A DNA stretch of 64,000 nucleotides from Agelas oroides (lineage: Eukaryota > Porifera > Demospongiae > Agelasida > Agelasidae), in NCBI GenBank assembly GCA_949130485.1, contig OX422183.1, positions 30,556,316-30,620,315 on the forward strand, read 5' to 3'. Positions within the stretch are counted from its first letter, which is position 1. Every line of letters begins with the position of its first letter. Position numbers and translations under genes: made by a program. Below, piece after piece: positions 4,617 to 60,692 of this stretch. Below the pieces are notes generated by a model. The model saw only the letters and a program-made list of their open reading frames with translations, was not told where the DNA came from and did no database searches.

Positions 4617-4717
4617 CTATTCATGCTTTTGACCAATCAGATTTCTTGTAATACGTCATGTGACTTGGTTGTGGCGCGTGTTGGTTCAGTTCTTGGCTTC
4701 ATTCAGTTCGATCGAGG

Positions 4718-5572
4718 ATGATGGCGTCTGGGCTATGGGTCGGAGATGTACCCCCAGAGTTGGCGGAGGTGTCTGTGGGCGAACTCGCTTCCTTAGATGA
4801 CGAGTCGTTTTGGAAGTTAGCAGCGTCGCAATACGACGACCACGAGTTCGATTCGTTCGACGTCGACAATGGGTTTTGGCACGAAGCATCGCAGCAGACC
4901 GCAAATATCATGGATGATGGCGAAGAAAAGAGCGCCTCAAAGGGATCATCTCGTTTTGCTAAACCCGAGACAATGGAGAATTTGCAACGAATTGTTGACG
5001 GTGCCGAACCGGCAAAGACAAGAAACCAGACCGACTTGGCCGTACGCACGTGGATGAGTTGGAGACTAGCCAGGATCCAAGCAGCACAACCAAACGATGA
5101 AATGCCACCAAGGTTGACGCAAATGTTGAAGTCCGAACTGTGCAAATGGTTGTTCTTTGTGGTGGAGGTGCGCAGGCAGGATAGTAAGCGCTATCCAGGA
5201 ACCACGTTGCACGGGATACTCTGTGGCATTCAGCGCCATGTGCGAAAGCAGAAGCCTAGTCAAGCTAGTGAGACTATTGACTTTTTCAGCGATCCGGAGT
5301 TCAAGTTTCTGAGGGATGTTCTTGATGCACAAATGAAGGATCTGCATTCGCATGGTGTCGGAAGTAGTAAGAAGCAAGCTGAACACTGTTGGTATGACTG
5401 CAAACCAGTGGGTCATAACCCTTTAGGAAATACTGTGTGCCGCTTGTGTAGAAAAGCTGAGATACCTGGTTATAAAACCAATCATTCTTTAAGGGTTTCT
5501 GCAGCGACCAGACTTTTTCAAAAAGATGTGGACGAACAATTGACCCCAAAGTTCTCCAGTTCAGCAACCTAA
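4718..5572 (+). CDS. Defective Crypton-type tyrosine recombinase (DUF3504), copy 2
   Basis: 284 residues, identical to copy 1 except for Asp in place of Asn in the W-Y-x-C motif at the deletion joint. It shows the same internal deletion of the catalytic Arg/Lys segment and the same lack of the C-terminal Tyr. Preservation of the whole frame in both copies while the host retrotransposon has decayed suggests recent movement, presumably driven by a full-length relative elsewhere in the genome. Confidence 0.8.
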   Translation: MMASGLWVGDVPPELAEVSVGELASLDDESFWKLAASQYDDHEFDSFDVDNGFWHEASQQTANIMDDGEEKSASKGSSRFAKPETMENLQRIVDGAEPAKTRNQTDLAVRTWMSWRLARIQAAQPNDEMPPRLTQMLKSELCKWLFFVVEVRRQDSKRYPGTTLHGILCGIQRHVRKQKPSQASETIDFFSDPEFKFLRDVLDAQMKDLHSHGVGSSKKQAEHCWYDCKPVGHNPLGNTVCRLCRKAEIPGYKTNHSLRVSAATRLFQKDVDEQLTPKFSSSAT

Positions 5573-8360
5573 TATCGTTTCATAGCATCCAGTCCTTCCA
5601 CAGCATCCAGTCCTGAATATTCAAGGATGTTCCTCAGTAGTTATTAACTATCGGTGAATTTGAAATTACCTGTGGGTGGTCTTGAACTTACTTGCTAGTA
5701 ATGTGGTCATTTGAACTTGCTGCATTCCACTTACCTGCTGGTGATGTTGTAATTACTGCATTTGAGAAGTTGTGATGCTGTAATTTGATACTGGCTGCTC
5801 ATTACATTGTTTCCTCAAGTACCAATTTCCTGAGTTTAGATACCTGGTATGTGCTGTTAGATACCTGACACGTGCTGTTAGATACCTGACACGTGCTGTT
5901 AGATACCTGATGTGTTCTTGTGGCAGGTTTCTCATGGGTTTGGGTACTTCATTACTTCAAAGGGAATTATTCATAAGTATGTCTAAGGTAAGATTCCGCT
6001 CTCTTCTAAGACAACGCAAAAGGGAAGAACGTGAGAACTTCTTTGCTTCTCTAGACCTTCACAACACTGACCCCCGGAAACTTTTTCGTACCATCCGACA
6101 GAAGAATGGCCACCAAACGGTCCCCACCACTCAACTAGTCTCTAGAGGAAAGACCTATGAAGACCCCGAGGTCATGGACGGCTGGAAAACTCACTTCCAA
6201 GATCTTGCTTCCCCAACTCCATCCTCCTCCTTTGATGACACCTTCCACCCCACCATCTCTGCAGAATTTCAACACCTACTCACCATCCCACCTGGTGAAG
6301 ACATCACAGTATCTCCAGGTGAAGTAGCCAGGGCCGTAGAATCACTTGGCTCCAACAAAGCACCTGGCCCAGATGAGGTCGAGGCTGAGCACCTGCATTT
6401 CGGAGGGCCCTCCCTCATTATACATCTGACCAACACCTTCAATGCCATACTTGCCACTGGACACATCCCTGCATCCTTCTTGCATGGCCACGTAATTCCC
6501 ATCCCCAAAGGCCATGACAGGAACCTATGTGATCCATCCAACTACAGAGGCATATCTCTGTTGTCATCCATCAGTAAGGTCCTTGAGAAGCTGCTCATCA
6601 ATATCATGTCACCAGATATATCACTAAATCCATTGCAAGGTGGCTTCAGGTCTGGATACAGCTGTCTTCACACCGCCTACATTTTACAAGAGGCCATTCA
6701 ACACACAAGAGAACGAAATAAGAAAGCATATGTTGCCTTTCTAGACGCCAGGAAAGCCTTTGATACCGTGTGGCATGAAGGGCTCTTTGTTAAGCTTCAC
6801 AACAAGGGACTCCCCATGTGCATATGGGAACTCTTCCTGCTCCGTTGCCTGGAACAACGCCACCTCTGCCAGCTTCCCCATCCGCCAAGGTGTCAGACAG
6901 GGTGCCATCCTCTCACCTACACCTCTTCTATACTCCATTTTCGTTGACGAGCTCCTCGACCTCCTCTCCACCTCTGGACTTGGAGTGAGAGTGAATTCCA
7001 TTTACATCGGAGCACCTATGTACGCTGACGACCTTGCCTTAATTGCAGAATCTCCTCAAGAACTCCAAGCCATGCTAAACATCGTGCACTCCTATGCAGG
7101 GAAATGGAGATACAACCTTAACGCGAGCAAGTCATTCATCATGGTATTTGGAGAGTCTCCCCGTTCAAGAACTCGAGCAAGATCCTTATGGGAATGGCAT
7201 CTAGGGAGTGAGAAAGTGCAAGAAGCAGATGAGGTGCACCATCTTGGGATCCTCCGATCAACCTCCTTCTCCACCTTGTCACGTACCACAGAGTGGAGCA
7301 CTGCAGGGAGAAGTGCATTCTTCGCACTTAACGGTGTAGGATCTAGGTTTGGATGTCTACACCCTATCACGTCATACAAGCTATACTCAACTTTATCCAT
7401 CCCCATCATGCTCTATGGCTCAGAATTGTGGTCACTGACCAGTACCGAACTGAACATTCTTGAGCACACCCACCGTAAGATCCTTCGTACCATCCAAGGC
7501 CTCCCAATCAGATGTCCAGCGGCAGCTCTCCAGAGCCTGATTGGTTCCCGTTCCATTTCATCCTACATCTCCCAATGACAGCTGGCTTTCATAAATTTCA
7601 TCATCAACATGCAAGCCAGTGACCTCCCCAAGCAGCTGCTCGAAGCCAGAGTTGTAAACCCCAGAGCTAAAGGAATCACTGTCACCTGGGGAAACCTCCT
7701 TGACGAGCTCTGCCTCCCCTCCATCAAACAGCTCCTTAACACGCCCCGCAACAAAGAGACCTGGAAACGATCAATCAAGCGGCTCCTGAACATCCAAGCA
7801 TACATCACCAGGCTAGATCAATGTGAGAAATATCCGCTGGGTGACTGTGATTTACCGATTGGAAGACCCGCCCCACACTGGACCGTCACCCTCCAGGACA
7901 CCCATGCAACCCGCAGGAACAACTTTCGGATCCGCCTTCTAGTAGGGTGCGACGGGTTAGAAACAGATGCCAGTTGCTTCCGATGGAGGAAAGATCACAA
8001 TCAACCTAATAACTCCACCTGCAAACTCTGCCATTCCGAGCCCAAAGATCCCTTCCACTTCATAGCCAAGTGCCCGGCCCTCTCACCTATCCGATCTCGC
8101 CTTCTAAGTGCCACCCCCGAAACGGTAAAACCGCACCTCCCAGACCTGGAAGCAGACCCATTGCGATTCACCGAGGTTGTACTAGGCCTGGAATGGATTA
8201 AAGACACACCTACCCAAACGTTTATCTGACCCAACTAAAGAGCGCACGCAGCTCCCTGATTCTCCATTCAGACTAGGCTCCCCACAACTGGCTGCAGAAA
8301 TTTGCCCAAACAGGGATACTCTCCTTAAGTGGAGGCTATAAAGAAGAAGAAGGCACTGTG

Positions 8361-9299: not shown

Positions 9300-10526
9300 C
9301 TAACATCTTCCATTTGGAGGGCCACGAAACTGTCTAACATGTGCTACATAGGCAATGTCTCTAGGCACAGCCACAGCTTCGTACCCACTCATCTTCTCTC
9401 TTGTATCATGAATACCAACTTCCACTATAGTAGACAACCTGTGAAGACACTTTCTGAATGGAAGCCTTTTGTGAACACTGGAGATCAATAGACTAGTGAT
9501 GTTCCCATCTGGTCTACTTTCATGTTTCATTCCACAGTCAGGATAGAACTCGATCCATTCAAATACACATGAGCCCTTGTAACACCAATTGTCAATGTAA
9601 TAGTGTAGGGTCTTTTGCCCTGAGACCAGAGGCATGAAGAAGTCATCCTGGTCCGCAAAGAGCATATATTCATAGTTAGTGCCTAGGAATCGATAAATAC
9701 AGTCATGATATGCTAGCATCTGTGAATGATAGGGAATGTCAACATTACTTCTTAACCGTTGCTGCCAAACATCAATAGATAAGAACCCGTCTTCTTGTGC
9801 TTTCTTTATGAAGGATTGTTGAAGATCCTTAAATGAATCATCAGCAATCATATGTACATGACCAACACCAATTGTCCTCTGGTAGTTCAGCCAGTCTTTT
9901 AGATAGTGTGGAAAGCCATAAACTACACCGATGCATGCAGCAACTTTGTACTGTGACTTTCCGTTGTCTTTAGTCCTCTGCTGTAAGGGAACAGAAATCA
10001 TAACAGGTCGCTTAGACTCGGCAGGGATTACAATACCATTTTCACTTGTCTTGTACAACAGAGCCGCTTGGCTGCCGTTCTGTGCTGGCAGGTCAAAGCA
10101 GTCAACCATTGCCAGAGTGTGAGAATAAGATGGCTTCTCGTCAATATATTTTCCAACCCAGCCATTCACATTCAGTGTGTGAACCAACAATTGAGTGGTA
10201 TATAACCTTCCTATCTGACATCCAACTACCAGTTTGTCATATAGTATGGTTTTTCTCATTTCTACCATGAACACAGACGCATTCTTATGTCCATGTCGTG
10301 GCCTGCTGTCAAAATACACCGATCTGACAATAACATCAGGGCTTGATGGGGTGTTCCCCTTGTAGAGTGGTTCTCTGACATGATACATCAGTTTGCTCAG
10401 CGAGTAGCTGGCTGAGTTCAGTACAGACTGCAGGGAAATGTAGCCATAATAGGGCATGGCGACCAGCACACACGACACAACCACAACCACCACAAGGAAA
10501 GCTATCTTTAGACGTACAACTGGCAT
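9300..10526 (-). CDS. Glycosyltransferase family 92 (DUF23) protein
   Basis: 408 residues in one exon. Residues about 7-24 form a hydrophobic signal anchor (K-I-A-F-L-V-V-V-V-V-V), giving the type II membrane topology expected of a Golgi glycosyltransferase. The catalytic region includes C-I-G-V-V-Y-G-F-P-H-Y-L-K-D-W-L-N-Y-Q, the substrate-proximal H-D-C-I-Y-R-F and the metal-binding D-x-D-like A-D-Q-D-D-F-F. GT92 enzymes include galactosyltransferases that act on N-glycan core fucose or on pigeon-type glycans; the actual substrate here cannot be read from sequence. The start Met precedes the anchor directly. It is transcribed divergently from PSMC4, with about 375 bp between the proposed starts. 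Confidence 0.88.
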   Translation of the reverse strand: MPVVRLKIAFLVVVVVVSCVLVAMPYYGYISLQSVLNSASYSLSKLMYHVREPLYKGNTPSSPDVIVRSVYFDSRPRHGHKNASVFMVEMRKTILYDKLVVGCQIGRLYTTQLLVHTLNVNGWVGKYIDEKPSYSHTLAMVDCFDLPAQNGSQAALLYKTSENGIVIPAESKRPVMISVPLQQRTKDNGKSQYKVAACIGVVYGFPHYLKDWLNYQRTIGVGHVHMIADDSFKDLQQSFIKKAQEDGFLSIDVWQQRLRSNVDIPYHSQMLAYHDCIYRFLGTNYEYMLFADQDDFFMPLVSGQKTLHYYIDNWCYKGSCVFEWIEFYPDCGMKHESRPDGNITSLLISSVHKRLPFRKCLHRLSTIVEVGIHDTREKMSGYEAVAVPRDIAYVAHVRQFRGPPNGRC

Positions 10527-10568
10527 ACCAGACTGCTCAGACGATCTTGGCCTTCAGAGGCTAGCCAG

Positions 10569-10901: not shown

Positions 10902-20060
<9,159 letters not shown>

Positions 20061-20540: not shown

Positions 20541-23500
20541 TTATGATACACATTTATCAGCCTCAATTTCATTAGCAAGGGTGGAGAGTTTAATGTCATA
20601 CAAGACCTGGACAAGGGTTGCCCAGGTCACTGGCTGCTTGCCACTTCCTATCAGCCACTCCTGGAGAATTTCTGTGTTGATTTGTTCAGCGTCATTCAAG
20701 TGTTTGTGTGCAATGACCTTGACCCTTGATCCATTTCTGTCGTCTAGGAGGAAAGTACCAAACTGGACATACTTGGTTCCTATCTCCACAGGAATACTGA
20801 TCACTCTTCCATCAGTACATGTGAACTTCAGCAGTTCTTGTAGACTGGGTTTGGTGTCTCGACTGCATGCAAACTTTGCAAAGAGTTGGTCTGGTGCGAT
20901 TCCCACCTTTGCCTGAATTTTTGCCTGAATGTTTTCGATTGTGTCGCTAGCCTCCATCTGAACACCAGTAAATCTACCAGTGCATGTCTTCCAAGAAATG
21001 CGCAGACCACAATGCTGATACAACATAAGTTCAAGTGTTGACTCCTTTTGAATGTTGTAGTCAGAGAGGGTGTGGCTATCTTCTAACTGCTTGCCTGCAA
21101 AGGTGAGGCATTGCTGCTCTGGTGGGATTCCCTCCTTGTCCTGGACCTTGGCTTTTACGTTTTCAATTGTGTCACTGGCCTCTACCTCGAGGGTGATGGT
21201 TTTTCCAGCATGAGTCTTCACAAAGATTTGCATACCACCAAGCAAGCGCAACACAAGATGAAGCGTTGACTCTCTTTTGATGTTGTAGTCAGAGAGGGTG
21301 CAGTCATCTTTCAGCTGCTGGCCAGCAAAAAAAAGGCGCTGCTGATCAGGTGGGATTCCCTCCTTGTCCTGGATTTTGGTCTTTACAGTTTCAATAGTGT
21401 CAGTAGCTTCCACATCAAGAGAAATTGTTTTGCCTGTGAGTGTCTTCACAGTGATTTCCATACCACCAGGTGGGTGCAGCACAAGGTGAAGTGTTGACTC
21501 CTTTTGGATGTTGTAGTCAGAGAGGGTGTGGCTATCTTCCAACTGCTTGCCTGCAAAGGTGAGGCATTGCTGCTCTGGTGGGATTCCCTCCTTGTCCTGG
21601 ATTTTGGTCTTTACAGTTTCAATAGTGTCAGTAGCTTCCACATCAAGAGAAATTGTTTTGCCTGTGAGTGTCTTCACAGTGATTTCCATACCACCAGGTG
21701 GGTGCAGCACAAGGTGAAGTGTTGACTCCTTTTGGATGTTGTAGTCAGAGAGGGTGTGGCTATCTTCCAACTGCTTGCCTGCAAAGGTGAGGCATTGCTG
21801 CTCTGGTGGGATTCCCTCCTTGTCCTGGATTTTGGTCTTTACAGTTTCAATAGTGTCAGTAGCTTCCACATCAAGAGAAATTGTTTTGCCTGTGAGTGTC
21901 TTCACAGTGATTTCCATACCACCAGGACCTGGTGGGTGCAGCACAAGGTGAAGTGTTGACTCCTTTTGGATGTTGTAGTCAGAGAGGGTGTGGCTATCTT
22001 CCAACTGCTTGCCTGCAAAGGTGAGGCATTGCTGCTCTGGTGGGATTCCCTCCTTGTCCTGGACCTTGTCTTTTACATTTTCAATTGTCTCACTCGCCTC
22101 TACCTCGAGGGTGATGGTTTTTCCAGCATGAGTCTTCACAAAGATTTGCATACCACCAAGCAAGCGCAACACAAGATGAAGCGTTGACTCTCTTTTGATG
22201 TTGTAGTCAGAGAGAGTGCAGTCATCTTTCAGCTGCTGGCCAGCAAAAAAAAGGCGCTGCTGATCAGGTGGGATTCCCTCCTTGTCCTGGATTTTGGTAT
22301 TTACAGTTTCAATAGTGTCAGTAGCTTCCACATCAAGAGAAATTGTTTTGCCTGTGAGTGTCTTCACAGTGATTTCCATACCACCAGGTGGGTGCAGCAC
22401 AAGGTGAAGTGTTGACTCCTTTTGGATGTTGTAGTCAGAGAGGGTGTGGCTATCTTCCAACTGCTTGCCTGCAAAGGTGAGGCATTGCTGCTCTGGTGGG
22501 ATTCCCTCCTTGTCCTGGACCTTGGCTTTTACATTTTCAATTGTGTCACTGGCCTCTACCTCGAGGGTGATGGTTTTTCCAGCATGAGTCTTCACAAAGA
22601 TTTGCATACCACCAAGCAAGCGCAACACAAGATGAAGCGTTGACTCTCTTTTGATGTTGTAGTCAGAGAGGGTGCAGTCATCTTTCAGCTGCTGGCCAGC
22701 AAAAAAAAGGCGCTGCTGATCAGGTGGGATTCCCTCCTTGTCCTGGATTTTGGTCTTTACAGTTTCAATAGTGTCAGTAGCTTCCACATCAAGAGAAATT
22801 GTTTTGCCTGTGAGTGTCTTCACAGTGATTTCCATACCACCAGGACCTGGTGGGTGCAGCACAAGGTGAAGTGTTGACTCCTTTTGGATGTTGTAGTCAG
22901 AGAGGGTGTGGCTATCTTCTAACTGCTTGCCTGCAAAGGTGAGGCATTGCTGCTCTGGTGGGATTCCCTCCTTGTCCTGGACCTTGGCTTTTACATTTTC
23001 AATTGTCTCACTCGCCTCCACCTCAAGGGTGATGGTTTTGCTGGCAAGAGTTTTCACAAAGATTTGCATACCACCAAGCAAGCGCAACACAAGATGAAGC
23101 GTTGACTCTCTTTTGATATTGTAGTCAGAGAGGGTGCAGTCATCTTTCAGCTGCTGGCCAGCAAAAATTAGGCGCTGCTGATTTGGTGGGATTCCCTCCT
23201 TGTCCTGGATTTTGGCCTTTACAGTTTCAATAGTGTCAGTAGCTTCCACATCAAGAGAAATTGTTTTGCCTGTGAGTGTCTTCACAGTGATTTCCATACC
23301 ACCAGGTGGGTGCAGCACAAGGTGAAGTGTTGACTCCTTTTGAATGTTGTAGTCAGAGAGGGTGTGGCTATCTTCTAACTGCTTGCCTGCAAAGGTGAGG
23401 CATTGCTGCTCTGGTGGGATTCCCTCCTTGTCCTGGACCTTGGCTTTTACATTTTCAATTGTCTCACTCGCCTCCACCTGAAGGGTGATGGTTTTGCTGG

Positions 23501-25895
23501 CAAGAGTTTTCACAAAGATTTGCATACCACCACGCAAGCGCAACACAAGATGAAGCGTTGACTCTCTTTTGATATTGTAGTCAGAGAGGGTGCAGTCATC
23601 TTTCAGCTGCTGGCCAGCAAAAATTAGGCGCTGCTGATTTGGTGGGACTCCCTCCTTGTCCTGGATTTTGGTCTTTACAGTTTCAATAGTGTCAGTAGCT
23701 TCCACATCAAGATAAATTGTTTTGCCTGTGAGTGTCTTCACAGTGATTTCCATACCACCAGGTGGGTGCAGCACAAGGTGAAGTGTTGACTCCTTTTGGA
23801 TGTTGTAGTCAGAGAGGGTGTGGCTATCTTCCAAATGCTTGCCTGCAAAGGTGAGGCATTGCTGCTCTGGTGGGATTCCCTCCTTGTCCTGGATTTTGGT
23901 CTTTACAGTTTCAATAGTGTCAGTAGCTTCCACATCAAGAGAAATTGTTTTGCCTGTGAGTGTCTTCACAGTGATTTCCATACCACCAGGACCTGGTGGG
24001 TGCAGCACAAGGTGAAGTGTTGACTCCTTTTGGATGTTGTAGTCAGAGAGGGTGTGGCTATCTTCTAACTGCTTGCCTGCAAAGGTGAGGCATTGCTGCT
24101 CTGGTGGGATTCCCTCCTTGTCCTGGACCTTGGCTTTTACATTTTCAATTGTCTCACTCGCCTCCACCTCAAGGGTGATGGTTTTGCTGGCAAGAGTTTT
24201 CACAAAGATTTGCATACCACCAAGCAAGTGCAACACAAGATGAAGCGTTGACTCTCTTTTGATATTGTAGTCAGAGAGGGTGCAGTCATCTTTCAGCTGC
24301 TGGCCAGCAAAAATTAGGCGCTGCTGATTTGGTGGGATTCCCTCCTTGTCCTGGATTTTGGCCTTTACAGTTTCAATAGTGTCAGTAGCTTCCACATCAA
24401 GAGAAATTGTTTTGCCTGTGAGTGTCTTCACAGTGATTTCCATACCACCAGGACCTGGTGGGTGCAGCACAAGGTGAAGTGTTGACTCCTTTTGGATGTT
24501 GTAGTCAGAGAGGGTGTGGCTATCTTCTAACTGCTTGCCTGCAAAGGTGAGGCATTGCTGCTCTGGTGGGATTCCCTCCTTGTCCTGGACCTTGGCTTTT
24601 ACATTTTCAATTGTCTCACTCGCCTCCACCTCAAGGGTGATGGTTTTGCTGGCAAGAGTTTTCACAAAGATTTGCATACCACCAAGCAAGTGCAACACAA
24701 GATGAAGCGTTGACTCTCTTTTGATATTGTAGTCAGAGAGGGTGCAGTCATCTTTCAGCTGCTGGCCAGCAAAAATTAGGCGCTGCTGATTTGGTGGGAT
24801 TCCCTCCTTGTCCTGGATTTTGGCCTTTACAGTTTCAATAGTGTCAGTAGCTTCCACATCAAGAGAAATTGTTTTGCCTGTGAGTGTCTTCACAGTGATT
24901 TCCATACCACCAGGTGGGTGCAGCACAAGGTGAAGTGTTGACTCCTTTTGGATGTTGTAGTCAGAGAGGGTGTGGCTATCTTCTAACTGCTTGCCTGCAA
25001 AGGTGAGGCATTGCTGCTCTGGTGGGATTCCCTCCTTGTCCTGGAACTTGGCTTTTACATTTTCAATTGTCTCACTCGCCTCCACCTGAAGGGTGATGGT
25101 TTTGCTGGCAAGAGTTTTCACAAAGATTTGCATACCACCACGCAAGCGCAACACAAGATGAAGCGTTGACTCTCTTTTGATATTGTAGTCAGAGAGGGTG
25201 CAGTCATCTTTCAGCTGCTGGCCAGCAAAAATTAGGCGCTGCTGATTTGGTGGGACTCCCTCCTTGTCCTGGATTTTGGTCTTTACAGTTTCAATAGTGT
25301 CAGTAGCTTCCACATCAAGATAAATTGTTTTGCCTGTGAGTGTCTTCACAGTGATTTCCATACCACCAGGTGGGTGCAGCACAAGGTGAAGTGTTGACTC
25401 CTTTTGGATGTTGTAGTCAGAGAGGGTGTGGCTATCTTCTAACTGCTTGCCTGCAAAGGTGAGGCATTGCTGCTCTGGTGGGATTCCCTCCTTGTCCTGG
25501 ACCTTGGCTTTTACATTTTCAATTGTCTCACTCGCCTCTACCTCGAGGGTGATGGTTTTTCCAGCATGAGTCTTCACAAAGATTTGCATACCACCAAGCA
25601 AGCGCAACACAAGATGAAGCGTTGACTCTCTTTTGATATTGTAGTCAGAGAGGGTGCAGTCATCTTTCAGCTGCTGGCAAGCAAAAATTAGGCGCTGCTG
25701 ATTTGGTGGGATTCCTTCCTTGTCCTGGATTTTGGCTTTCACATTTTCAATTGTGTCACTGGCCTCCACCTCAAGAGTGATGGTTTTCCCAGTAATAAAA
25801 GTCTTCACAAAAATTTCCATCTTTGCTTTCTCGGGAATTGTTGGTTCAGAAACGCAGTGCTGGACGCGATCTTGGACAGAGTTACGTTGTCCCAT
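20541..25895 (-). CDS. Divergent polyubiquitin-like array with C-terminal Death-like domain
   Basis: 1,784 residues, one exon. Residues 1-25 are unique and begin M-G-Q-R-N-S, fitting an N-myristoylation pattern. Residues 26-1630 are 21 ubiquitin-like repeats of 76-78 residues. Type A (M-Q-I-F-V-K) has Cys42 and Thr44 in place of Arg42/Ile44, keeps Lys48 and Lys63 and ends H-P-P-G-G. Type B (M-E-I-T-V-K) keeps Ile or Phe44 but has Gln48 and Arg63 and usually ends R-L-L-G-G. Three hybrids (repeats 9, 18, 19) join a B start to an A end. Only repeats 3 and 10 end R-L-R-G-G, so deubiquitinases probably cannot cut most joints. A degenerate 22nd repeat follows. Residues about 1710-1784 look like a Death domain ([29 protein letters not shown]). 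The likely role is a fused ubiquitin-mimic signalling scaffold; ordinary polyubiquitin precursors lack such a tail. Confidence 0.93.
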
Positions 25896-27418: not shown

Positions 27419-28417
27419 TCATCTATGGGCTGGCAGGGTGTCTTGTATTGGTCGTCCATACAATTTTTGGGCTGGAGAGAGTCCGTCTTTGCGTGATGGT
27501 GTGTTTCGGTATTGCAGTAGTGCTCGGGCCAACTTGTTCTCATCTAGGGACCGTCCACGCCATGCTGATCGGATGATCTTTTTCATGGACTTTACCGTAG
27601 CTTCGGCCTTTCCATTACTTTGAGGATACCTTGGTGATGAGGTAACGTGTTCGAAGCCCCATTGTTTAGCAAACTTCTGGAAGACCTGGGATGTGAATTG
27701 TGGGCCTTGGTCAGTCCATACTTTGTCTGGGGCACCAGTGCGACAAAATGACGATTTGAGGGATGACACAAGTTTTTCTGTCGTGGTGTTGGTCATCATT
27801 GGCGTTATTTCCGGCCAGTCAGAGAAGCAGTCCACTGTTATGAGGTATTGCTGTCCAGCATATGAGCAGAAGTCTGCTGGGATTTCTTGAAATGGCCTCT
27901 GGGGCGTGGGTTTGAGGGTAATGGGCTCCTTTTGTTGCGATGGCAGAGAATCTCGACATAGCTTGCATGAGAGGATTGTGTTATCTATGTCATTATCCAT
28001 ACCTGGCCAATAGACGGTGAGTCTCGCCCTGTCTTTAGTTCTGACTGTGCCTTGGTGGGAGTCATGGAGCTGTGCTAGTGCCTCTCGTCTCATCTGTACA
28101 GGTATCAGGAGACGGCAACCATAGAGGATGAGATCGTCCTCCAACGAGAGCTGTGTGCGGGCATTCCAATATCGTCGACAATCGGGGGGTAGCCGTTGTC
28201 GGTGTCGGGGGAATCCTGATGTGATGTAGGATTTGAGCTTCTGGTACTCTGGATCGTTGTCGGCGACTTTGCGAAGTTCAGTTATGCGGAGTGGTTCCTC
28301 TGTGCTTGTAACAGCTCTGATATCAGCTGCGGACATGGCTGTTATTTTGTCGATCTCACTCTCCGCTAGCGCCTCCTCTGGTTGTGGGTCTGCCGTTGAG
28401 TTACGAGATAAAGCGTC
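27419..28417 (-). pseudogene. Gypsy integrase remnant
   Basis: Zinc-binding H-x-x-H...C-x-x-C (H-D-S-H-Q-G-T and C-K-L-C) is followed by the D-D-E core: T-V-D-C-F-S-D-W, W-T-D-Q-G-P-Q-F, and P-Q-S-N-G-K-A-E. An in-frame TGA follows the core near 27417, and the C-terminal tail (27056-27300) continues in shifted frames. The upstream end carries D-A-L-S-R from the end of RNase H, showing where the nested LINE fragment joined. Confidence 0.9.
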
Positions 28418-29330
28418 AGGATAGATAGATAGATATAGATAAAATTTTCATTTGAACAGGAAGTGCCTCATCGGCACTTGTGCCGGTCTACCTGAGGGTC
28501 CTGCACATAGCTGATAGCTAGTTTACAGAACACAAGTTCAAGACATAAAACAAAACAGGGTGGGTTACAAAACATAAAACAAGACAATAGATATAGCTAT
28601 AATAGTTTATGCAGATTAAAGCAGGTGCTCCCGAAGAGCCTGCCTAAATGTTTCTTTAGCCTGGATTGACTTGAGAGCCCTGGGAAGCTTGTTCCATAGG
28701 TAAGCCCCATTGAACTCAAAAGACTTTCTGTAGAAGTTCGTGTGAGGGCATTGTAGTTGGATATTATTAGCACCCTTAGTTTCCCTATACTCAGCGTTCA
28801 AGTTCCTACTAAACTTGGAGCATAGATATGCAGGAGCTCTCCCATGCAGACAGCTATGGACTTTCAATACAACTTGCATTTCTCTCCGGTCCTGCAGGGA
28901 CATCCAAGAGAGCTCAGATCGGAGTTGTGCACTAGGTGTCCTAGGTTTTGCAGAAGTTATTAACCTCATTGCATAATTTTGAATTCTCTCTAGTTTCATT
29001 TGCAAGTTCACTCCACATATACCCCAGACACTACTGCAAAGACCAGCGTATTGTACAATAATACGTACCTTGTTCTTCTAGGGACTGCTGGGAATATTCG
29101 TCTTAACTGTGCCATGCTGGCCAAGCATTTCCTCCTTATGCTGGTGACATGTTCACTCCAATTCAGGTCCTTGTCTACTATAACACCAAGGAACTTGACC
29201 TTGGGTTCAGCAGTTAAGGTCACCCCTTGGTGAACCAGCAAGGCATGTTCCACTTCCTTCCTTCTACTCCTTCTGCCTAAAAACATGACTTGGGTCTTTG
29301 TAACGTTCATCTTCAATCTGTTGTTGTTGT
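28418..29330 (-). mobile_element. 5'-truncated non-LTR fragment nested in the gypsy RNase H
   Basis: Same orientation as its host. Encodes the C-terminal end of a LINE reverse transcriptase (K-T-Q-V-M-F-L-G, K-F-L-G-V-I-V-D-K-D-L-N-W, L-E-R-I-Q-N-Y-A) in two frames broken near 29008, and ends in ATCTATCTATCTATC, a microsatellite tail as in CR1/L2-like elements. It separates RNase H residues W-L-K-G from D-A-L-S-R. Confidence 0.88.
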
Positions 29331-29788
29331 TGTTCAGAGTTCCCTTCAGCCAGCTTGCTGTGAATGTGTACCCCATGATCTTAGTCTTCAAGCGCTGTAG
29401 CCGTGGGTTCTGGATCTCGTCCAATCTGTGGTTGTTCAATATTGGGACAGTGAGCGGATGGTGGTCCGTTACAGCGGTGAAGTGAGGCATGCCTGCCAGG
29501 AAGACGTCACATTTAGTGATGGCCCATGCTACTGCTAGGAGTTCCAGTTCGATAATAGCGTATCGGCTCTCTGGGTCAGTTAGGAAGCGAGATCCCGCTT
29601 GGATGAGGGACCATGTGTTGCCAGTCTTTTGTTAAAGAACGAAGCCGAGGCCTTGGCGGCTGGCGTCTGTGCAAAGGCGAGTTTATCTGGGTCGAAGTAT
29701 GACAAAATGGGTGCGGACGTCAGTGACTTTTTGGCGTTTGCGAAGGCAGCTTCAAACTCTTCGGTCCAGGTGTACTCGTTTTTGGTGC
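29331..29788 (-). pseudogene. Gypsy RNase H remnant
   Basis: Shows W-T-E-E-F-E-A-A-F near the MITE junction and T-D-H-H-P-L with L-D-E-I-Q-N-P-R-L-Q-R-L near 29400-29490, typical of gypsy RNase H. Several stops and frame changes lie between. It is truncated at both ends by nested insertions. Confidence 0.85.
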
Positions 29789-30250
29789 TACCGTAAACGC
29801 TTTAATTAACGCGCCGTTAAAAAATAATTACAATCCGCAAAGGCGCCTTGTTCGGAGCGAAAAAAATTACTTCGGACCCATGGGGGCGCCTTATTTAGGG
29901 AGGCGCCTTCGAATTAGAGCGCAACTGGCACCTTTCCGTGAAGTTGAAAGAGCTGAGTATGGCTACACTGACAACGATCGAATTTGAGTACGTTATTCGA
30001 GGCTACCATGAAATTGGCATGAATACAAGCGCGTTTGGAGTCCAAAGATTGAAAGTAGAAGTAGAAATCAGTCGAAGAACTAGATATCTCGAAAGTCACA
30101 CGAGTCGGGTGCGAAATCTCTCTTAATAGAAAGCGCCCTTAAAAAATATTTATGTCGTCGACGGGCGCCCGCGTTAGAGCGAGAAAAATTAGTTTCCTGT
30201 CAAAAGGGCGCTTTCATTAGAGAGGCGCGTTAATAAAAGCGTTTACGGTA
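29789..30250. mobile_element. TA-flanked MITE with CCGTAAACGC ends, nested in gypsy
   Basis: Ends TACCGTAAACGCTTTAATTA and the complement of TAATAAAAGCGTTTACGGTA. The outer TA on each side fits a Tc1/mariner-type TA duplication. Removing the element with one TA rejoins gypsy reverse transcriptase and RNase H in frame (residues L-L then S-T-K-N-E-Y-T-W). Internal GGCGCC-rich subterminal repeats are present. No coding function is assigned. Confidence 0.9.
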
Positions 30251-31224
30251 AGGAGTGGTCGTAATGGTGCTAGCAAAGTTGCTATGGTGGGTGTGCTTGC
30301 TGACAGCTGATTCACTAGGCCGATGAAGGATCGAAGGTCAGTACGGTTTGCTGGTGTAGGGAATTCTGTGATTGCCTGGGTGATAGATGGGTCGATTTGG
30401 TAACCTTTTGGCGATAGGATAAATCCAGCGAAGTCGACTGTAGTTTGAACAAATTTCCATTTCGACCGGTTGAGGGTGATATTTTTCTCGGCGCATCGTT
30501 GTAGGAATTTCCTGATGTGTGAGACGCGCTCTGCTCTGTTTTGGTCGTATATCACGATGTCGTCAACGATGCGTCGGAAGCCTGGAAGCCCAATGAATGC
30601 CTCGTCCATCCTACGGTTATAGTGCTCAGATATGCCGTAGGGTGCGCGGAGGAACTTGAACCGTCCAAAGGGGGTGATGAACGTGGTGAGGTCTTGGCTG
30701 TCTCTATCTAGTGGGCACTGATGGTAGCCTTTCTTTGCGTCAATTTTGGTGAATATCTGTACGTTTTCTGCTGTGATGTCGGCTACCGTCTGGGCTGGTG
30801 TGGCTGATTGGTATCGTTCACGTTTGACGTACCGGTTGAGGTGTGACAGATCGACGCACATACGGATGTCGTCAGTTCCTTTCTTGGGTGCTACTACGAT
30901 GGGAGCGCACCACTCGATGGGGTATGATACGGGTGTGATTATGCCTTGCTCTTCCAAGCTCTGGAGCTCTGCTTTCAGTTTCTCTCTGTACGCGTATGGT
31001 ATAGTCCTGGGGGTCTTGACACAGAATGGCTTTGCGTCGTCTACGAGAGCTATGTGAAACTGCTCTCCTTTCATGGGTTTCACCTTGTTATCGAATACGC
31101 TTGGGAACTCGTTGATTAGGCTCTGTGAGGTTACTTGGTGGGTTATTTCGGATGATGTGATTGGACTTTGATGGGTTGTGGATAAGACGGTGGCAGGATA
31201 CTCAGTGCCATGGATGCTTCCCAT
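30251..31224 (-). pseudogene. Gypsy reverse transcriptase remnant
   Basis: The polymerase domain is largely intact: I-R-M-C-V-D-L-S-H-L-N, F-T-K-I-D-A-K-K-G-Y-H, A-P-Y-G-I and the catalytic I-V-D-D-I-V-I-Y, where V-D-D replaces the more usual Y-x-D-D spelling as in other gypsy elements. It overlaps the protease frame at its 5' end in another frame and is cut at its 3' end by the TA MITE. Confidence 0.92.
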
Positions 31225-31646
31225 GACATTAGGGCCCCTTTTACGTTTGGGTATATGTGCAACTCATCCTTGTGTGTACGATTCCCGATCTTGATCTGCA
31301 CTGGGAGTTTGCCGGTGGGGGTCATCTTTTGACCATTAACGGTACGAGGTGTAACTTGGGATGGTAGTAAGTTGTCTGGGTGATCTCTGAGGCTTCGTAT
31401 CATGCTTGGTCCAGCCACAGATATGTCTGCTCCTGAGTCTGGAAGTACTTGCACGATTGCGGATCCATTAGGGGTTGAGATTTCTGCCTGGATGGTCGGT
31501 GCAGGTTGGATTCCTGTTTGTGATGTGTTGATCGATGGTGTGACGTAGATAGCTTTAGTGGCCGGTTCTTGTGGGCGGGGTTGGGCAAGTTTGCGGGACT
31601 TACAAGCTTTGGCGATATGGCCGGTCCGGTTGCACAGGTGGCACAC
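31143..31646 (-). pseudogene. Gypsy zinc knuckle and aspartic protease region
   Basis: Begins with C-H-L-C-N-R-T-G-H-I-A-K-A-C, a CCHC knuckle, and continues to the retroviral-type protease motif L-P-D-S-G-A-D-I-S-V. It is in a different frame from gag, with a C-P-G-C motif just upstream in the same frame, so either a programmed frameshift or a mutation separates them. Confidence 0.88.
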
Positions 31647-32347
31647 TAGATGGTAGGCGGGGCATTGTCTGCGTCCCCCAGGGTGGAGACCCGAACTGCA
31701 TCCTGGGCATCTCGGGCCTCCATGGGTACTGTTAGGGTTTGCTGTTTTTGGCGTACAGCTTGTATGGACGTTTCGGGTGTAGCTCCAGCTAATTCTGCTC
31801 TCTGGCGCTTGGCGGCCTCATGCGCGCGGCATTTAGAGAGAGCTGTGTCGAGGGTGAGGTTCTTCTCTTTAAGTAAGTCCTCCACGGCCTCCCCGTCGGC
31901 TAGTCCTGCGATGATTTGGTCGCGGATGTTCTTTTGGGTGCATTCATCGTTACAAAACTTGTAAGTTTTTGCGAGTTCCCTCAGGGAGACTACGAAGTCG
32001 TCGAACATCTCGCCTTCTTGTTGTACACGAGATCTAAAGGCACGTCGTTCCACGGACTCGTTGATTTGCCCGTTGACGTACGCTTCAATGGCGGTGATAA
32101 TCTCCTTGGCGCTTTTGCGCTGTGCGTCAGTTAGTCCCAAGTTCTCTACGATGGTTAGCGTTTCTCGGGAGAAGCTTAGGGTCAGGGCTTGAACCTGCTT
32201 TTCAGCTGCTTGATCGTCCAGGCCAGATAGGCTGAAGTAAGCCTCCCACTGTATCTTCCATGCTTTGAAATCGGAACCTCTGTCGACCTGGAGGTCCAGT
32301 TTTGGTAGGTCTCCTTGTCTGAATACGTACGCCATCGTTTTATTCAC
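31646..32347 (-). pseudogene. Gypsy gag region
   Basis: 233 codons with a gag-like helical region (F-K-A-W-K-I-Q-W-E-A-Y-F, F-D-D-F-V-V-S-L-R-E-L-A, I-R-D-Q-I-I-A-G-L). It ends at a TAG at 31646 directly before the zinc knuckle in another frame. The start lies 22 bp inside the 5' LTR edge. Confidence 0.85.
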
Positions 32348-42013: not shown

Positions 42014-45000
42014 TCAACAATGTCTGATCAGTAATTCATTCCACTGTGCTGCTGGGTCATTCTGTGCCTCAGTCCCTGACCATTTGAGTGTCTGTCGATT
42101 ACTGCTTATACCAAAAGTACCATTGAGGTGGACTGGAAGATGTGCAGAGGCATCTGTAGGCAAAGGAAGAAAGCAGAATACACGACCATTCTCTTGGCTT
42201 GGGTGCTCTGTGAGCTCCATGGCCACACCTACCCATGGGAATATGTGTAGCTCACATGCTGCAGCATGTACATCCTCTATGGTGCAACCAATCAGGTTGG
42301 TCACTAACCAGTGGCTATAGCTTGTGACACTTTGAGGGCCAGTTGTAACTTGCACATGGAAGTCTAGCTCTAGTATCTCTTGCTGACTAACCTTGTAGGG
42401 CTGCCTCTTGTGTGCAAGCTTCAGTTTAGTAGTAAGGTCCTGTCGTTGCTGATGTACCCTTTCACTGTCTGACTCATGTATGCCTACACAAAACACTTGC
42501 TCATGACTACCATTCTGTTGTATTTCATGGACTTCAATCCTATCAACTGACTGAAGGAACAGCAGAAGAAACTTTGCATCGCTCTTGAGAGCACTAGTCA
42601 ATCCTCTCAACTTCTCAATGGTGTACTGCTTATCTGATAGCTTTGAGGGCGTATTGCGGAGTGGAAACCGGAAGAGAGTGCCAGAAAAAGAGACCATACC
42701 TGTACAGAAGCCACAGATGCCATCATATGCAGCTAGGCTATCTTGGTGTTGACTATGGCATTCTAAGAGTGTGAGCTTTTGTCCTGACTTCCAAGGCCAC
42801 ACCTCTTCGTGGGGTTCCAGGAAGGCTAGTATGTTGCCACTCAGGATGAAAGGAAGATCTGTATGCATGTAGGTAGGTAAAAATGTGATCACATAAAGTT
42901 AAATTGAGAGAATTTGCTATCAGTTAGCTAACTTTGAAATCGGAAATCCAAGTAGAATTCCTGTCAAACACCTGCCACAGATGTTTATAGATGGATGGCA
43001 AGTTTAAGAAGGTATAATCATGGAAATGAAAGTTTCAGTTATGATTTTAGGAGTATGTCAACCTTCACTAACACTAAAGAGTGCCCATGGGTGAAGCACC
43101 TTGCAAGTCTGCCAAAGAAGGGGGTGGGCACTCTTTTAAGTGTTTCCACACTATGATTTAATCACAAAAGAGCACCCATGTCAGCTACTCGACACCCTCA
43201 AAGCAAATAATTGGACAAACACAATGGAGCCACCAGCCTTTAAATTCAAGTCCTGAAGGCACACAACACTTTGAATGGCAGCCTGTCACATGCACTGTGA
43301 GCATGATGTAGCTAGCAGAGTGCAATGAAATTAGCAACATCCACCTACACAAAACAACCTTGTAATAACTTTTGGTGAAGTGTAACACAAAGTTTCTCAG
43401 ACTGCATAGCGCTTGAAGCTGTGCTTCTCAAACTCAAAACGCAAACTCACTTCAGAGTGGGCGCTTATTTGAGTAAACTTTGACCCTCCAAATGTAGGGT
43501 GTGGGCACTCTTTCACAAGACTATGGTAAAATCTCGCATACATGTAATGTTCACTTGGAATTTGGGTACTATATACTTTTCCAAATTTTATGGTTTTCTG
43601 CCTGAAGACTGGCATAGGTGTACAAAATTGAACACCCAACCACAAGTGTACAAATTTGTACAGCCTTGACTATGAGGAAGGAGAACAAATTTGTACACTC
43701 ACACCAGTAGTGCACCTGTGAATTTGAAAAAATTGGTACATTTGGTTGATCATGTCTGACTTTTGGAATGCTAGAAGGTGACCTTCACAAGAGCATGTGG
43801 TCGCATTACCACTAAGGAAGCTCCCCATTGAGGGAACAGGTAACAACAAAGACATACAAAATTAAGTGTAACCTATCAAGCGAGACCATCTTTCACCCAC
43901 ATCTAGCTGGTGGTCTGGCTTGATAGACCAAATTAAGTGATAGACTAAAGAGGTTACATGATATTCAAGTGACATAATGTCCACACATGCCATACGCTGA
44001 AGTTTGAATTCGTTATTAGTGCTAGTTATTGTTACCTAAAATAAAATCATGAAGGTTGATTTGGAACTGGTAAAGAGCATCAAACTAATAGCGCGACAGT
44101 GCTGCGTGAAGGGTGACACGAAAAGGTGTAACTTCCATTGGAATGTTATGTTGCATTACATCACGGAAGGTTGGGTAAGACCGTTTTTTTTGCCATTTAT
44201 CGGCTACTTTTTCAACTACCACTTACGGTAGCGGTGAAAAACTTTGTGTTACTCTAGAGCTTATTAATGTACATCTCCAGCAGCAAGATTGAGTTGCATA
44301 ACTTAATGAATACAAAGCAGAGAGGGTAGTTGACAATGCAGCAAAAGCAGATCACTTTTGAACTGGGTGTTATGGCAAACTATTCACTTCAGTATGTTGT
44401 GCTGGGTTGAATTCTGTGCGAGATATCTGATGTTGATTGTATTCATAAAATACACCCACCAGTCAGTAACACGGAACTTGAGATCTTTGAGCAGTGCCAT
44501 AAAGTCATCTTTACCAAGGTTCTGAAAGTACGAGCCACCTGGCTTCAACCAGAGTTTGAACATGCTGAAAAGAACTATCTTGTCGTGCCATTAGGTTTCT
44601 ACCAGATTTAGACCCCATGGAAGCACATCTTGATCTAGCCAAGAGGGTGGCAGACATGGGAAGTAAACCAGAACAGCCTATAGAATGGCCTTGCCCAACC
44701 GACATCTTCACAAATGCTTTAGTAACTGGAATACACTGTCCACCTGCAGATCGCAAGCTCCACGAAGTTGTTTGTGTTGACAGTGATACAACTCCGCGGT
44801 CTTGCTTCCCTGATCCCAAGAGAGCTGACTCCTTTGCAGAATACTATAAGAACAGATACAACCATAGTTTCAGGCATCTAGATCAGCCAGCACTCCAGTG
44901 TAAACCTGACTATCCTGTAACCCTAAATGTTAGTTCTTAAATAGTTACACCTTCTCTCTCTGCAAAGGCTGATACACTATCTATACCTATATCACCAGAT

Positions 45001-56890: not shown

Positions 56891-56896
56891 TGAATC

Positions 56897-59190
56897 ATGC
56901 ACATATGTAAATATTTCAATCAGAGTGGGAATCATTCTATTATTGATCTAGCTTTTGTTTCATCACCTTTTTTACTCAATTTTTGTAATACCGTCACCCC
57001 ACTTTCTACCTCTGATCACCATGGCTTCATTCTCTCCTTCCGTTCTAATGCTGTATCCAGGAGACCTTCCACCAGCACACGCAGAACTGTATGGTGCTAT
57101 GCTCAAGCTGACTTTGATCTGGCCTGTGAACTTTTAGCCCGTACTGACTGGAATTCTCTATGCACCGAGGCACAGGATGTCAACCAACTCTGGTCAGCGT
57201 GGCAGTCCAGGTTCTGCAGTGTTATGGAGCAATGTATACCTCAGAAAGTCCTCCCTACTCAAAAGCATCTTCCTTGGCTTAGCCCAGATCTGCTACAAGC
57301 AATTCGCAGAAGAAATACTCTCTTCAGAGCTTATAAGCGAACAGGATCTTTCAGTAAACTAGTTGAGTACAGGAGACTCCGGAATATTCTGGTATCATCT
57401 ATTAGATATTCCAAGAAAGCATTCCTCAACCGTCTTCATCATGTGGACCCCAAAATATTTTGGAAAATGATAAAATCGCTATCTAAGCTGAGCACTAGTG
57501 TTCCAACACTCACCTGTGATGATGTTGAATTCACTACCGATTTTGATAAAGCTGACCTGCTGAACAAGCAGTTCTTCAGTAACTTCAACCATTTACACCC
57601 ATCATTAGTCTGCACTGACCCACCCCTTATTTTCACTGACCGTTCTGAGTGTCCTGACTATCTCCTGTGTACCGAGGACCAAGTTTACAACCTCATTGCA
57701 TCTCTAGACTGTAGCAAGGCTACTGGTGCTGATAACATCTCTGCAAGAATACTAAAAGGTACTGTGTCTTGCATAACACCGACCGTGACTAAGATATTCA
57801 ATTTGTCTATCAAAACTGGTTTGTTTCCCCAAAGTTGCATGGAAATGTGCAAGAGTGGTACCAATTCCTAAAGGTGGGGACCTTTCCAACCCAACAAACT
57901 ATAGACCAATCTCAATTCTCCCAATTCTTAGTAAAGTTCTTGAAAAACATGTTCATAGCATTATTTCTGATCACCTGATGTTACACTCACCCATTTCGGA
58001 CCAACAATGGGGCTTTACTGCACGGAAATCTACTACTGCCGCTGTACTGTCCATGACTCATGACTGTACCCAGGCTCTTGACAGAGGCAAGGAAGTTTCT
58101 ACAGTTTTTTTTTGATATTAGCAAAGCCTTTGACAGTGTTCCCCACCTTCCACTTCTCATGAAATTAGCTGTCATCAATGTTGATCCATATATCAGAAAG
58201 TGGGTTCATAGCTATCTATCGTGCAGAGAACAACATGTTGTTGTCAATGGAGCTAAATCACCAGTCTTGCCAGTTGTCTCCGGGGTTCCTCAAGGCTCAG
58301 TGCTTGGCCCACTGTTGTTTCTAATTTATATCAATGATGTAACCTGTGTAGTGTCAAATGGAAAGATGGTTGTGTATGCAGATGACATTGCTCTGTACCA
58401 AATTATTCAGTCTCCTGAGGACTACCTCCTGGTACAACATGATATTAATGCTGTCTCTGAGTGGATTACTGCCAACTATCTGGCCTTGAACTATCGAAAA
58501 TGTTGCCATCTACTCTTCTCACGTAAAAGATCTCCTACCCTTCCAGTTGCTCCACTAGAGGTCAAAGGGAATTTTGTAAAACAAGTTAATGAATACAAAT
58601 ATCTTGGAGTCATCCTAACCTCAGACATGTCGTGGTCATCTCACATCTCTGCCATCAGCTCCAAAACTAGAAAACTTATTGGGGTCCTTTATCGAAAGTT
58701 CTATCTCTATTCAGAACCACATACCCTCCTACGTTTGTACCAGTCATTGATTCGTCCACACCTTGAATATGCTTGTAGTGTTTGGGATCCTCACCTGAAG
58801 AAAGACATTGAGAGGCTTGAGGGTATTCAGAAGTTTGGGTTGAAAGTTTGTCTAAAGCGATGGCGATGTGGATATGAGGAACTCTTGCAACTCGCCAACC
58901 TTCCAACATTAGCCACAAGAAGAAAATGTTTAAAACTCTGCCTATTCTACAACATGGTTAACAGGCTTGCTACTTTTCCAAACCTTCCCACTGTTTTTAG
59001 ATCCACTCCCTATGGCAATTCTATTCGGTCTATTAACTCCAGCTCCATGGTACAGCCACGTGCGCATTCAAACTTTTATTCAAACTCATTTTTCCCCTCT
59101 TGTACTAGTTTGTGGAATAGTTTACCTTCAGATGTTAGTGCTATTTGTACCTTACCTGTTTTTAAACGTGCTATTGTAAATTTGTTTTAG
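56897..59190 (+). mobile_element. CR1-like non-LTR retrotransposon, 5'-truncated
   Basis: Begins inside the endonuclease C-terminus (I-I-D-L-A-F-V, S-D-H-H-G-F) and continues through reverse transcriptase: N-Y-R-P-I-S-I-L, F-D-I-S-K-A-F-D-S-V, G-V-P-Q-G-S-V-L-G-P and catalytic Y-A-D-D-I-A-L-Y (about 58375-58400), ending with the usual S-L-W-N-S-L-P. Frame breaks lie near 57850 and in a T9 run at 58107-58115. Otherwise open, so it is a young but dead copy. An A-rich (AAC)n stretch follows at 59280-59325. It lies between the pseudogene at 53164 and the intact gene at 60693. Confidence 0.92.
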
Positions 59191-60016: not shown

Positions 60017-60505
60017 TGCCGTAAAACAGCAAATCTGGGGTTAAACAGCAAATCTGGGGTAAAACAGCAAATCTGGGCTAAAACAGCAAATCTGGGCTAA
60101 AACAGCAAATCTGGGATAAAACAGCAAATCTGGGGTAAAACAGCAAATCTGGGGTAAAACAGCAAATTTGGGATAAAACAGCAAATCTGGGATAAAACAG
60201 CAAATGTGCTGTAAAAACAGCAAATCTGGGATAAAACAGCAAATCTGGGGTAAAACAGCAAATCTGGGGTAAAACAGCAAATCTGGGATAAAACAGCAAA
60301 TGTGCTGTAAAAACAGCAAATCTGAGATAAAACAGCAAATGTGCTGTAAAAACAGCAAATCTGGGGTAAAACAGCAAATCTGGGGTAAAACAGCAAATCT
60401 GGGGTAAAACAGCAAATCTGGGGTAAAACAGCAAATCTGGGATAAAACAGCAAATGTGCTGTAAAAACAGCAAATCTGGGGTAAAACAGCAAATGTGGTA
60501 TAAAC
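60017..60505. repeat. 19-bp minisatellite, about 25 copies
   Basis: Unit CAGCAAATCTGGGGTAAAA with variants CAGCAAATCTGGGATAAAA and the 20-bp CAGCAAATGTGCTGTAAAAA, the latter recurring at intervals as a higher-order marker. Because 19 is not a multiple of three, all three minus-strand frames are open; these frames are not genes. Confidence 0.97.
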
Positions 60506-60692
60506 AATAACATTGTGATGCCTTTGCTCTAAGAAATACTTGCTGCCTTGTTTATGTAATGGAAGGTGTAAAATTAGTGAAACGAAGTAATTGTCACCAG
60601 CTAAAATGAGCCAAAAAAATTCTTAAATTTCTAGTATGAATATAACAAATACAGCAAACAATTAACACTGCTTAAAAACAGTTGCAGTATTC

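Follow-up and report, generated by a model that had tools for sequence, protein, structure and literature searches.

What does an animal make when a polyubiquitin-like array is read straight through into a Death-fold domain? The question is raised by a gene in a stretch of DNA from the sponge Agelas oroides (assembly GCA_949130485.1, contig OX422183.1, positions 30,556,316 to 30,620,315 of the forward strand); this whole stretch of 64,000 nucleotides is called the window below. In animals, NF-kB and cell-death signalling bring linear ubiquitin chains together with Death-domain assemblies; normally one enzyme builds the chain when it is needed and another erases it. The window gene instead encodes 21 ubiquitin-like units, a truncated 22nd unit and a C-terminal Death-fold domain in a single uninterrupted frame of 1784 codons. 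Judged from sequence, its product would most likely be a linear scaffold of ubiquitin-like units, permanent for the most part, that docks onto immune assemblies built on Death domains. In its full form, this reading takes the locus to be a working animal gene, one of a family that has expanded in its lineage and presumably arose from polyubiquitin to which a Death domain was joined; as a multivalent recruiter, the product would bring linear-chain readers to Death-domain complexes. Its probability is put at roughly 0.45, somewhat short of an even chance.

Organization of the gene and its Death-fold domain

A preliminary description of the locus reported one 5.4-kb exon with 21 ubiquitin-like repeats, a degenerate 22nd and a Death-like C-terminus. 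The unit table, a Pfam search and structure modelling bear out this layout, with the qualification that "exon" stands for an open frame read from genomic DNA. Neither a stop nor an intron separates the array from the C-terminal domain. PF00240 is found in 22 stretches of the protein, the truncated unit included, and when the protein is cut at the unit starts, each of the 21 full units is identical to ubiquitin at 60-65 of 76 residues, the 22nd being degenerate and truncated.

The C-terminal ~105 residues are predicted to be a Death-fold domain, a helical bundle. The Pfam Death profile PF00531 matches the isolated domain at E 9.3e-4, but the 19.7 bits do not reach the Pfam cut-off of 22.6, and it matches the whole protein at E 0.058. 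The same profile gives matches at E <=1 in 16 of 21 family members (best 1.3e-4). The Death-domain character is supported by a profile of the family, which matches Fas in the PDB at E 3.8e-4, and by a confident AlphaFold2 model of the domain (predicted local distance difference test, pLDDT, 92.4; predicted template modelling score, pTM, 0.86), whose 16 top structural matches are without exception Death domains.

A family of array genes and the sharing of the domain

With the C-terminal region as query, homologue searches gave 4 proteins in the length range of 981-3122 residues and 33 in that of 308-980. A ubiquitin array is joined to the same domain in 17 database proteins (P0002, P0006-P0017, P0019, P0021, P0024 and P0026), which have 4 to 31 ubiquitin matches each; in P0024 and P0026 the domain is represented by its first ~66 residues alone. 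The sponge genome itself holds three paralogues, L039, L040 and L042 (Table 1), and the window gene, at C1:30.577 Mb, lies close to two of them. These paralogues and database proteins rule out that the gene is unique, and since a whole family exists, a one-off assembly accident is unlikely. P0007 is the L040 gene in another assembly, differing at the start residue and one other, and is therefore not independent evidence. Nothing near-identical to the window protein was found among homologues of 308-3122 residues, or of up to 4051 residues in a search from P0002; such searches are non-exhaustive, as the P0002-seeded one returned only P0002 and P0003 and missed P0004, which is within its range.

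A ubiquitin truncated at about residue 46 runs into the domain in 14 of the 17 database proteins, in L039, in L042 and in the window gene, while P0007, P0008, P0010 and L040 have a linker in its place. The recurrence of the truncated-ubiquitin junction, with the linker form in a few members, suggests one ancestral fusion plus a variant. The shared frame and the recurring junction type also support the fusion as one gene and rule out that the C-terminal part belongs to a separate one.

The domain is found in other protein architectures as well. P0003 and P0004 are NACHT proteins with leucine-rich repeats (LRR) that bear the same C-terminal Death-fold domain, directly preceded by a hydrophobic stretch (Kyte-Doolittle 2.59 over 19 residues). 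Close to the N-terminus, both have another, weaker Death-like domain at 37 and 41% identity (PF00531 E 0.007 in P0003). The remaining matches of the 308-980 residue search are one LRR protein (P0018), 14 proteins labelled as GTPase or ROC and two unlabelled ones; ROC is present in P0020 and P0030, the latter also with ankyrin repeats. In an alignment of the domains from 20 of the 37 database proteins (A1), those of NACHT-LRR and ROC proteins are 55-75% identical to the window domain. Within the sponge genome (259 Mb, 141 contigs), all 150 scored places match the domain at E <2e-12 (255 candidates, window gene counted), with identity down to 35% and some matches partial or stop-containing. The presence of the domain in NACHT-LRR and ROC-GTPase proteins agrees with the earlier guess of a function in innate immunity; an immune role of the window protein is an inference.

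Some further features of these proteins may be recorded. A hydrophobic stretch precedes the C-terminal Death-fold domain of P0018, as in P0003 and P0004; the N-termini of P0003 and P0004 look signal-peptide-like by eye; and L031 is an LRR protein of the sponge genome with a C-terminal Death-fold domain, L038 representing the ROC type.

Joints between the units

The tails of units 1-20 read HPPGG (7 units), RLLGG (5), HPPGPGG (4), HLLGG (2) and RLRGG (2, units 3 and 10). Eighteen of the 20 joints are thus non-canonical, with changes at positions 72-74, and 11 of the 20 combine L73P with R72H and R74P. The preliminary description, which gave nearly all joints as HPPGG, RLLGG or HLLGG, omitted the HPPGPGG form and the two RLRGG joints. 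By direct reading, GG is followed by M at 20 of 20 joints, the Gly76-to-Met1 order of a linear chain. An alignment-based count gives GG in 16 of 21 window units, because the HPPGPGG insertion shifts the alignment in 4 units, whose tails are thereby missed, and unit 21 ends in YQHCG.

Conservation across the family was counted in 20 rows, namely the 17 database proteins, L039 and the two frames of L042. These hold 144 units, of which 127 were used; the other 17 have fewer than 30 ubiquitin-identical residues, and L040 was omitted as a duplicate of P0007. Aligned in this way, which can overlook shifted tails, other family members keep GG in 21 of 127 units and RLRGG in 3, and P0002 (2315 residues) has GG in none of its 30. 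In L043, a canonical polyubiquitin gene of the same genome, the cleavable LRLRGG of the precursor ends 7 of 7 units, against 2 of 20 window joints. On these counts, loss of the processing signal is a family-wide trait. Because 18 joints are non-canonical and GG is mostly gone in the homologues, a largely permanent chain is likely, in line with the earlier expectation of a permanent chain. Ubiquitin with L73P has been termed non-cleavable and is employed as such (PMC10667490). The stronger word "non-hydrolysable", also used of the product, is not supported as it stands, because two joints are canonical and the seven RLLGG and HLLGG joints may still be cleavable.

Two unit types and the surfaces of linear diubiquitin

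Most full units belong to one of two types, which alternate along the array. Type A comprises units 2, 4, 6, 8, 11, 13, 15, 17 and 21, and type B units 1, 3, 5, 7, 10, 12, 14, 16 and 20; units 9, 18 and 19 are B/A chimeras. Type B units carry Q2E, F4T, T14S or Y, E16D, K48Q and K63R and retain R42 and I44 (F in units 14, 16 and 20). Unit 1 is the exceptional member of this type, with Q2E yet F4, T14 and E16 retained. Type A units retain Q2, F4 and T14, have E16 replaced by Q in units 4 and 11, carry R42C and I44T, and end in an HPP tail except in unit 21. All seven ubiquitin lysines are present in A units, and K48 and K63 are missing in B units.

The losses in the window array are complementary: the Ile44 side survives in B units, and the Phe4 patch in A units. 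When a UBAN domain binds linear diubiquitin, it contacts the distal unit at its Ile44 patch and tail and the proximal unit at a face centred on Phe4 (PMC4286102, PMC9294000); Gln2, Phe4, Thr14 and Glu16 are the residues named in PMC3690481. Both sides are loosely retained where a B unit is followed by an A unit, which is the case in 9 of the 20 neighbouring pairs. The other 11 pairs have I44T in the distal unit, Q2E/F4T/E16D in the proximal unit and an HPP linker between them.

In the favoured reading, the gene would yield a single long polypeptide, rarely or never cut, in which ubiquitin folds follow one another head to tail. Through its Death domain, this polypeptide would enter common assemblies with the NACHT-LRR and ROC-GTPase proteins of the same cells, whose Death domains are closely similar, and a built-in Met1-type chain would thereby be placed where LUBAC makes one in other animals. 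UBAN-type readers would meet a two-sided surface only at the nine B-to-A pairs, and the remaining 11 joints, with their HPP linkers, would offer neither surface. A bolder version, which we regard as doubtful, sees the protein as a gene-encoded LUBAC substitute: a linear ubiquitin-like chain that its own Death domain ties to immune Death-domain complexes and whose unit types split the linear-diubiquitin recognition surface. About every second joint would then be a reader site and the rest silent spacers that cannot be cut, so that as many as nine UBAN docking sites would be spaced out as on a ruler.

Weight of the evidence and alternative explanations

A number of observations speak against the recruiter reading. 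Among the nine two-sided pairs, three have I44F and two E16Q; I44 and E16 are both native in just 4 of 20 pairs, one of these with L8I, and L8, I44 and V70 are all native in only 5 of 21 window units. The complementarity has a p value of 0.0003 by permutation and 0.017 by label shuffle, in a test devised after the pattern had been seen. Family-wide, identity to ubiquitin is 0.49 for the Ile44 patch, 0.56 for the Phe4 patch and 0.45 for Glu16, against 0.70 for positions 1-71. Two window joints (after units 3 and 10) are fully canonical, and a model of the segment from unit 21 through the Death domain, of poor quality (pLDDT 60.3), was set aside. With respect to possible readers and enzymes in the genome, a UBAN-like exon at C3:12501854-12501970 matches the NEMO CC2-LZ profile PF16516 at 30.1 and 29.5 bits, below its cut-off of 35.3, and its sole PDB sequence match is ABIN1 (E 0.099). 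Two exons lie above the cut-off of PF18091, an RBR C-terminal domain that we take to be HOIP-type; the control genomes matched neither profile, so that both searches are without a positive control. PF16218, presumably OTULIN, had no match in the genome or in the control genomes, and nothing is concluded from it. Finally, the ratio of nonsynonymous to synonymous change (dN/dS, Nei-Gojobori) in the domain is 0.25, 0.34, 0.31 and 0.36 for the window gene against L039, L040, L042 and the NACHT-LRR gene L031, and 0.30-0.34 among other pairs, with L042 against L031 at 0.58; these values and the uncorrected unit ratios (pN/pS) given below carry no significance test.

The conservation figures bear most directly on the rival that survives best, an inert bead scaffold in which the ubiquitin folds would be rigid spacers that fix Death-domain length and valency and bind no ubiquitin reader. 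The fold core, at 0.85 identity to ubiquitin, is the only well-held part of the family units, while the Ile44 patch and Glu16 have decayed as just described and the tail stands at 0.34; the variable number of units points in the same direction. This explanation is nevertheless an unlikely one, since in the window the B and A units hold complementary sides, some paralogous units keep both surfaces (in L039 the Phe4 patch in 8 of 9 units and the Ile44 patch in 4 of 9), and unit pN/pS is below 1 (pooled A-A 0.22, B-B 0.44, A-B 0.30, unit 1 and the three chimeras excluded).

The same figures limit the "polyubiquitin mimic" of the preliminary description. Ile44 is required by many ubiquitin readers (PMC7348737), and because it is poorly kept across the family, many family arrays would not resemble ubiquitin to such readers; mimicry of ordinary ubiquitin is, as far as the sequences indicate, not general in the family. 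The term holds in the window insofar as complementary sides are partly kept, and fails insofar as A units have I44T and B units, except unit 1, are without the Phe4 patch. In flies, linear Ub6 that is encoded and cannot be modified proves highly toxic, via Ile44 and NF-kB (PMC7348737), and such toxicity is one possible cause of the decay of Ile44.

The joints raise a second alternative, a partly processed precursor. Deubiquitinases would cut the two RLRGG joints, and perhaps the RLLGG and HLLGG joints, leaving fixed multi-unit blocks and a Death-domain tail. In addition to the intact RLRGG sequences and the GG at all 20 joints, this scheme draws on the leader end, which resembles a canonical polyubiquitin leader: the 5' end of the window gene and that of L063, a canonical polyubiquitin gene, are 82% identical over 109 nucleotides (E 1e-25), of which ~34 are leader and 75 ubiquitin coding. 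The changes at 72-74 in 18 joints, 11 of them with L73P, and the widespread loss of GG in homologues, complete in P0002, nonetheless make it quite improbable. Moreover, both RLRGG joints precede units with E16Q (units 4 and 11), a change that cuts the kcat of OTULIN 35-fold, though USP21 still cleaved the mutants tested (PMC3690481).

A decoy or brake would have an anatomy identical to that of the recruiter. In this third alternative the chain would soak up linear-chain readers, or compete for Death-domain sites, and so damp signalling. The 11 pairs without both surfaces would suit it, and inhibition would be the better tolerated role, since unmodifiable linear chains are toxic via Ile44 in flies (PMC7348737); the sign of the effect is conjectural, and the probability of this alternative is low.

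The least probable explanation is an assembly artefact, a pseudogene or a neutrally expanding repeat: same-type units are near-identical in DNA (mean difference 3.5% for A and 2.1% for B), so that the array could be mis-sized, L042 has its in-frame TGA, and the non-exhaustive searches returned no near-identical protein, but dN/dS is below 1, P0002 and P0007 (again, L040 in another assembly) come from contigs 999 kb and 3.0 Mb long, and the array has no stop where ~9 are expected at 5% neutral change (simulation without gene conversion). Because of these stop counts, the dN/dS values and the existence of paralogues and homologues, the array is not a chance product.

The 5' leader and the surroundings of the gene

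The 5' end of the window gene is 86% identical to that of L039 over 161 nucleotides, ~90 of them ahead of unit 1. The leader of L063 looks untranslated, because it has no in-frame Met. In L039 the first ubiquitin Met is changed to Thr, so that the start would lie upstream if unit 1 is translated, and MGQRNS is a candidate start. The window leader fits PS00008, which we take to be the N-myristoylation pattern. Four of the 17 database arrays start with MG or MMG, of which P0016, P0017 and P0021 fit the pattern and P0015 does not; the leaders of L039 and L042 also fit, and the remaining arrays begin otherwise. Leader N-myristoylation is thus a mere hint.

Other ubiquitin-like sequences were encountered. 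The frame of 208 codons at L041 2049-2672, ~2 kb past the window end, is a short ubiquitin-like array without the Death-domain start motif, and many further diverged ubiquitin-like frames are found in the genome (L044-L062). Five of these (L050, L051, L054, L057 and L058) have a common C-terminal region with the word SYHGT, and L052 and L055 look RING/RBR-like by eye. P0005 is another ubiquitin-array fusion, with ~11 ubiquitin-like units and a protein kinase domain; it showed no match to the Death domain when the two were compared.

The neighbours of the gene in the window are listed in Table 1. The AAA ATPase is presumably the proteasome subunit Rpt3, and its closeness to a ubiquitin array, at a distance of a few kb, could be due to chance.

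Table 1. Coordinates of the window gene, its paralogues and neighbouring features (window numbering unless a contig is named)
Feature	Position	Strand	Basis or remark
Entire frame (1784 aa), from leader and 21 ubiquitin-like units through truncated unit to Death-fold domain	20541..25895	-	One stop-free frame, read from 25895 to 20541
25-residue leader MGQRNSVQ...PEKAK	25821..25895	-	Alignment to L063 and L039 leaders
21 ubiquitin-like units	21006..25820	-	Unit table; PF00240
Unit 3 tail, canonical RLRGG, ahead of unit 4 (E16Q)	25134..25148	-
Unit 10 tail, canonical RLRGG, ahead of unit 11 (E16Q)	23526..23540	-
Truncated 22nd ubiquitin-like unit (~ubiquitin residues 1-46)	20868..21005	-	Runs directly into Death-fold domain
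Predicted Death-fold domain, 105 aa	20544..20858	-	Common to NACHT-LRR and ROC-GTPase proteins
L039, ubiquitin-array/Death gene, 884-codon frame	C1:30.500 Mb (C1:30496500-30504500)		Domain 89% identical to window
L040, ubiquitin-array/Death gene, 443 codons	C1:30.456 Mb		Domain 87% identical to window
L042, ubiquitin-array/Death gene, 623-codon frame	C11		One in-frame TGA; domain 76% identical to window
Near-identical duplicated 302-codon frames	914-1822; 4664-5572	+	First frame: weak QRICH1 match, 29.6 bits, below 30.8 cut-off
Retroelement reverse transcriptase/integrase frames	5784-8229; 56894-59190	+	Three by Pfam, rest by reading (both strands together)
Retroelement reverse transcriptase/integrase frames	27419-31817	-	As above
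Glycosyltransferase family 92 frame	9300-10553	-	PF01697
AAA ATPase exons	13733-16939	+	PF00004
Sacsin-type domain frame	42014-42898	-	PF25794
Short tandem repeat, three frames open	60041-60622	-	Words like YPRFAVLPQICCF

Relation to known systems

Each part of the window gene has known counterparts. Canonical polyubiquitin genes (here L043, with 7 units, and L063, with 4 matches) likewise encode head-to-tail ubiquitin folds in one frame, and L063 also has the ~34 nucleotides of leader likeness. The L043 frame ends one residue past its last unit, whereas the window gene continues into the truncated unit and the Death-fold domain, and its units have diverged into types, with 18 of 20 tails altered. 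Met1-linked polyubiquitin, which LUBAC makes and UBAN domains recognize, has the same backbone linkage, and the B-to-A pairs hold its Ile44 and Phe4 sides; it is made on demand, whereas the window chain is genetically encoded and lacks both surfaces in 11 of 20 pairs. NACHT-LRR Death-domain proteins and DAPK-type ROC proteins carry the same Death-fold domain, joined to sensor or GTPase parts where the window gene has its ubiquitin units.

The closest published fusions are of other kinds. Polyubiquitin is among the fusion partners of TRADD-N, in a DEDD2-like clade, according to PMC8195603, which also reports large Death/TRADD-N expansions in a sponge. There too, polyubiquitin is joined to a death-pathway adaptor domain, but TRADD-N has an RRM-like (RNA recognition motif) fold in contrast to the Death fold of the window protein, and the available passages of that paper give no joint or unit analysis. 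TRADD-N is not among the Pfam matches of the window protein at E <=1, a search in which that paper's own profiles were not run. The synthetic Ub6-Stop-K0 chains expressed in Drosophila (PMC7348737) are likewise encoded, unconjugated and linear and escape normal handling; they are lysine-less and without a Death domain, whereas the A units of the window keep seven lysines. Algal fusions place one or few ubiquitins on odd partners, with <=3 on integral membrane proteins, and are short and without a Death domain (PMC6332867). A UBQ domain is named in a figure legend on sponge NOD-like receptors (NLRs) in PMC12909245.

The preliminary description knew of no protein with such an architecture. Within the literature searched, which left most subscription papers outside its scope, no description of a ubiquitin array with a Death domain was found, but polyubiquitin fused to TRADD-N, another death-pathway domain, is listed in PMC8195603. 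While the parts are known, the family of welded, joint-altered arrays and its Death domain shared with NLR-like proteins appear undescribed in the literature searched.

If the recruiter reading is true, this family would represent an enzyme-free wiring of the linear-ubiquitin/Death-domain signal, with the chain encoded in the gene and welded to the Death domain of NLR-like proteins. Its natural L73P-type joints would make deubiquitinase resistance directly testable, and its natural variants, in which one half of the linear-chain recognition surface is set apart from the other, would do the same for reader specificity.

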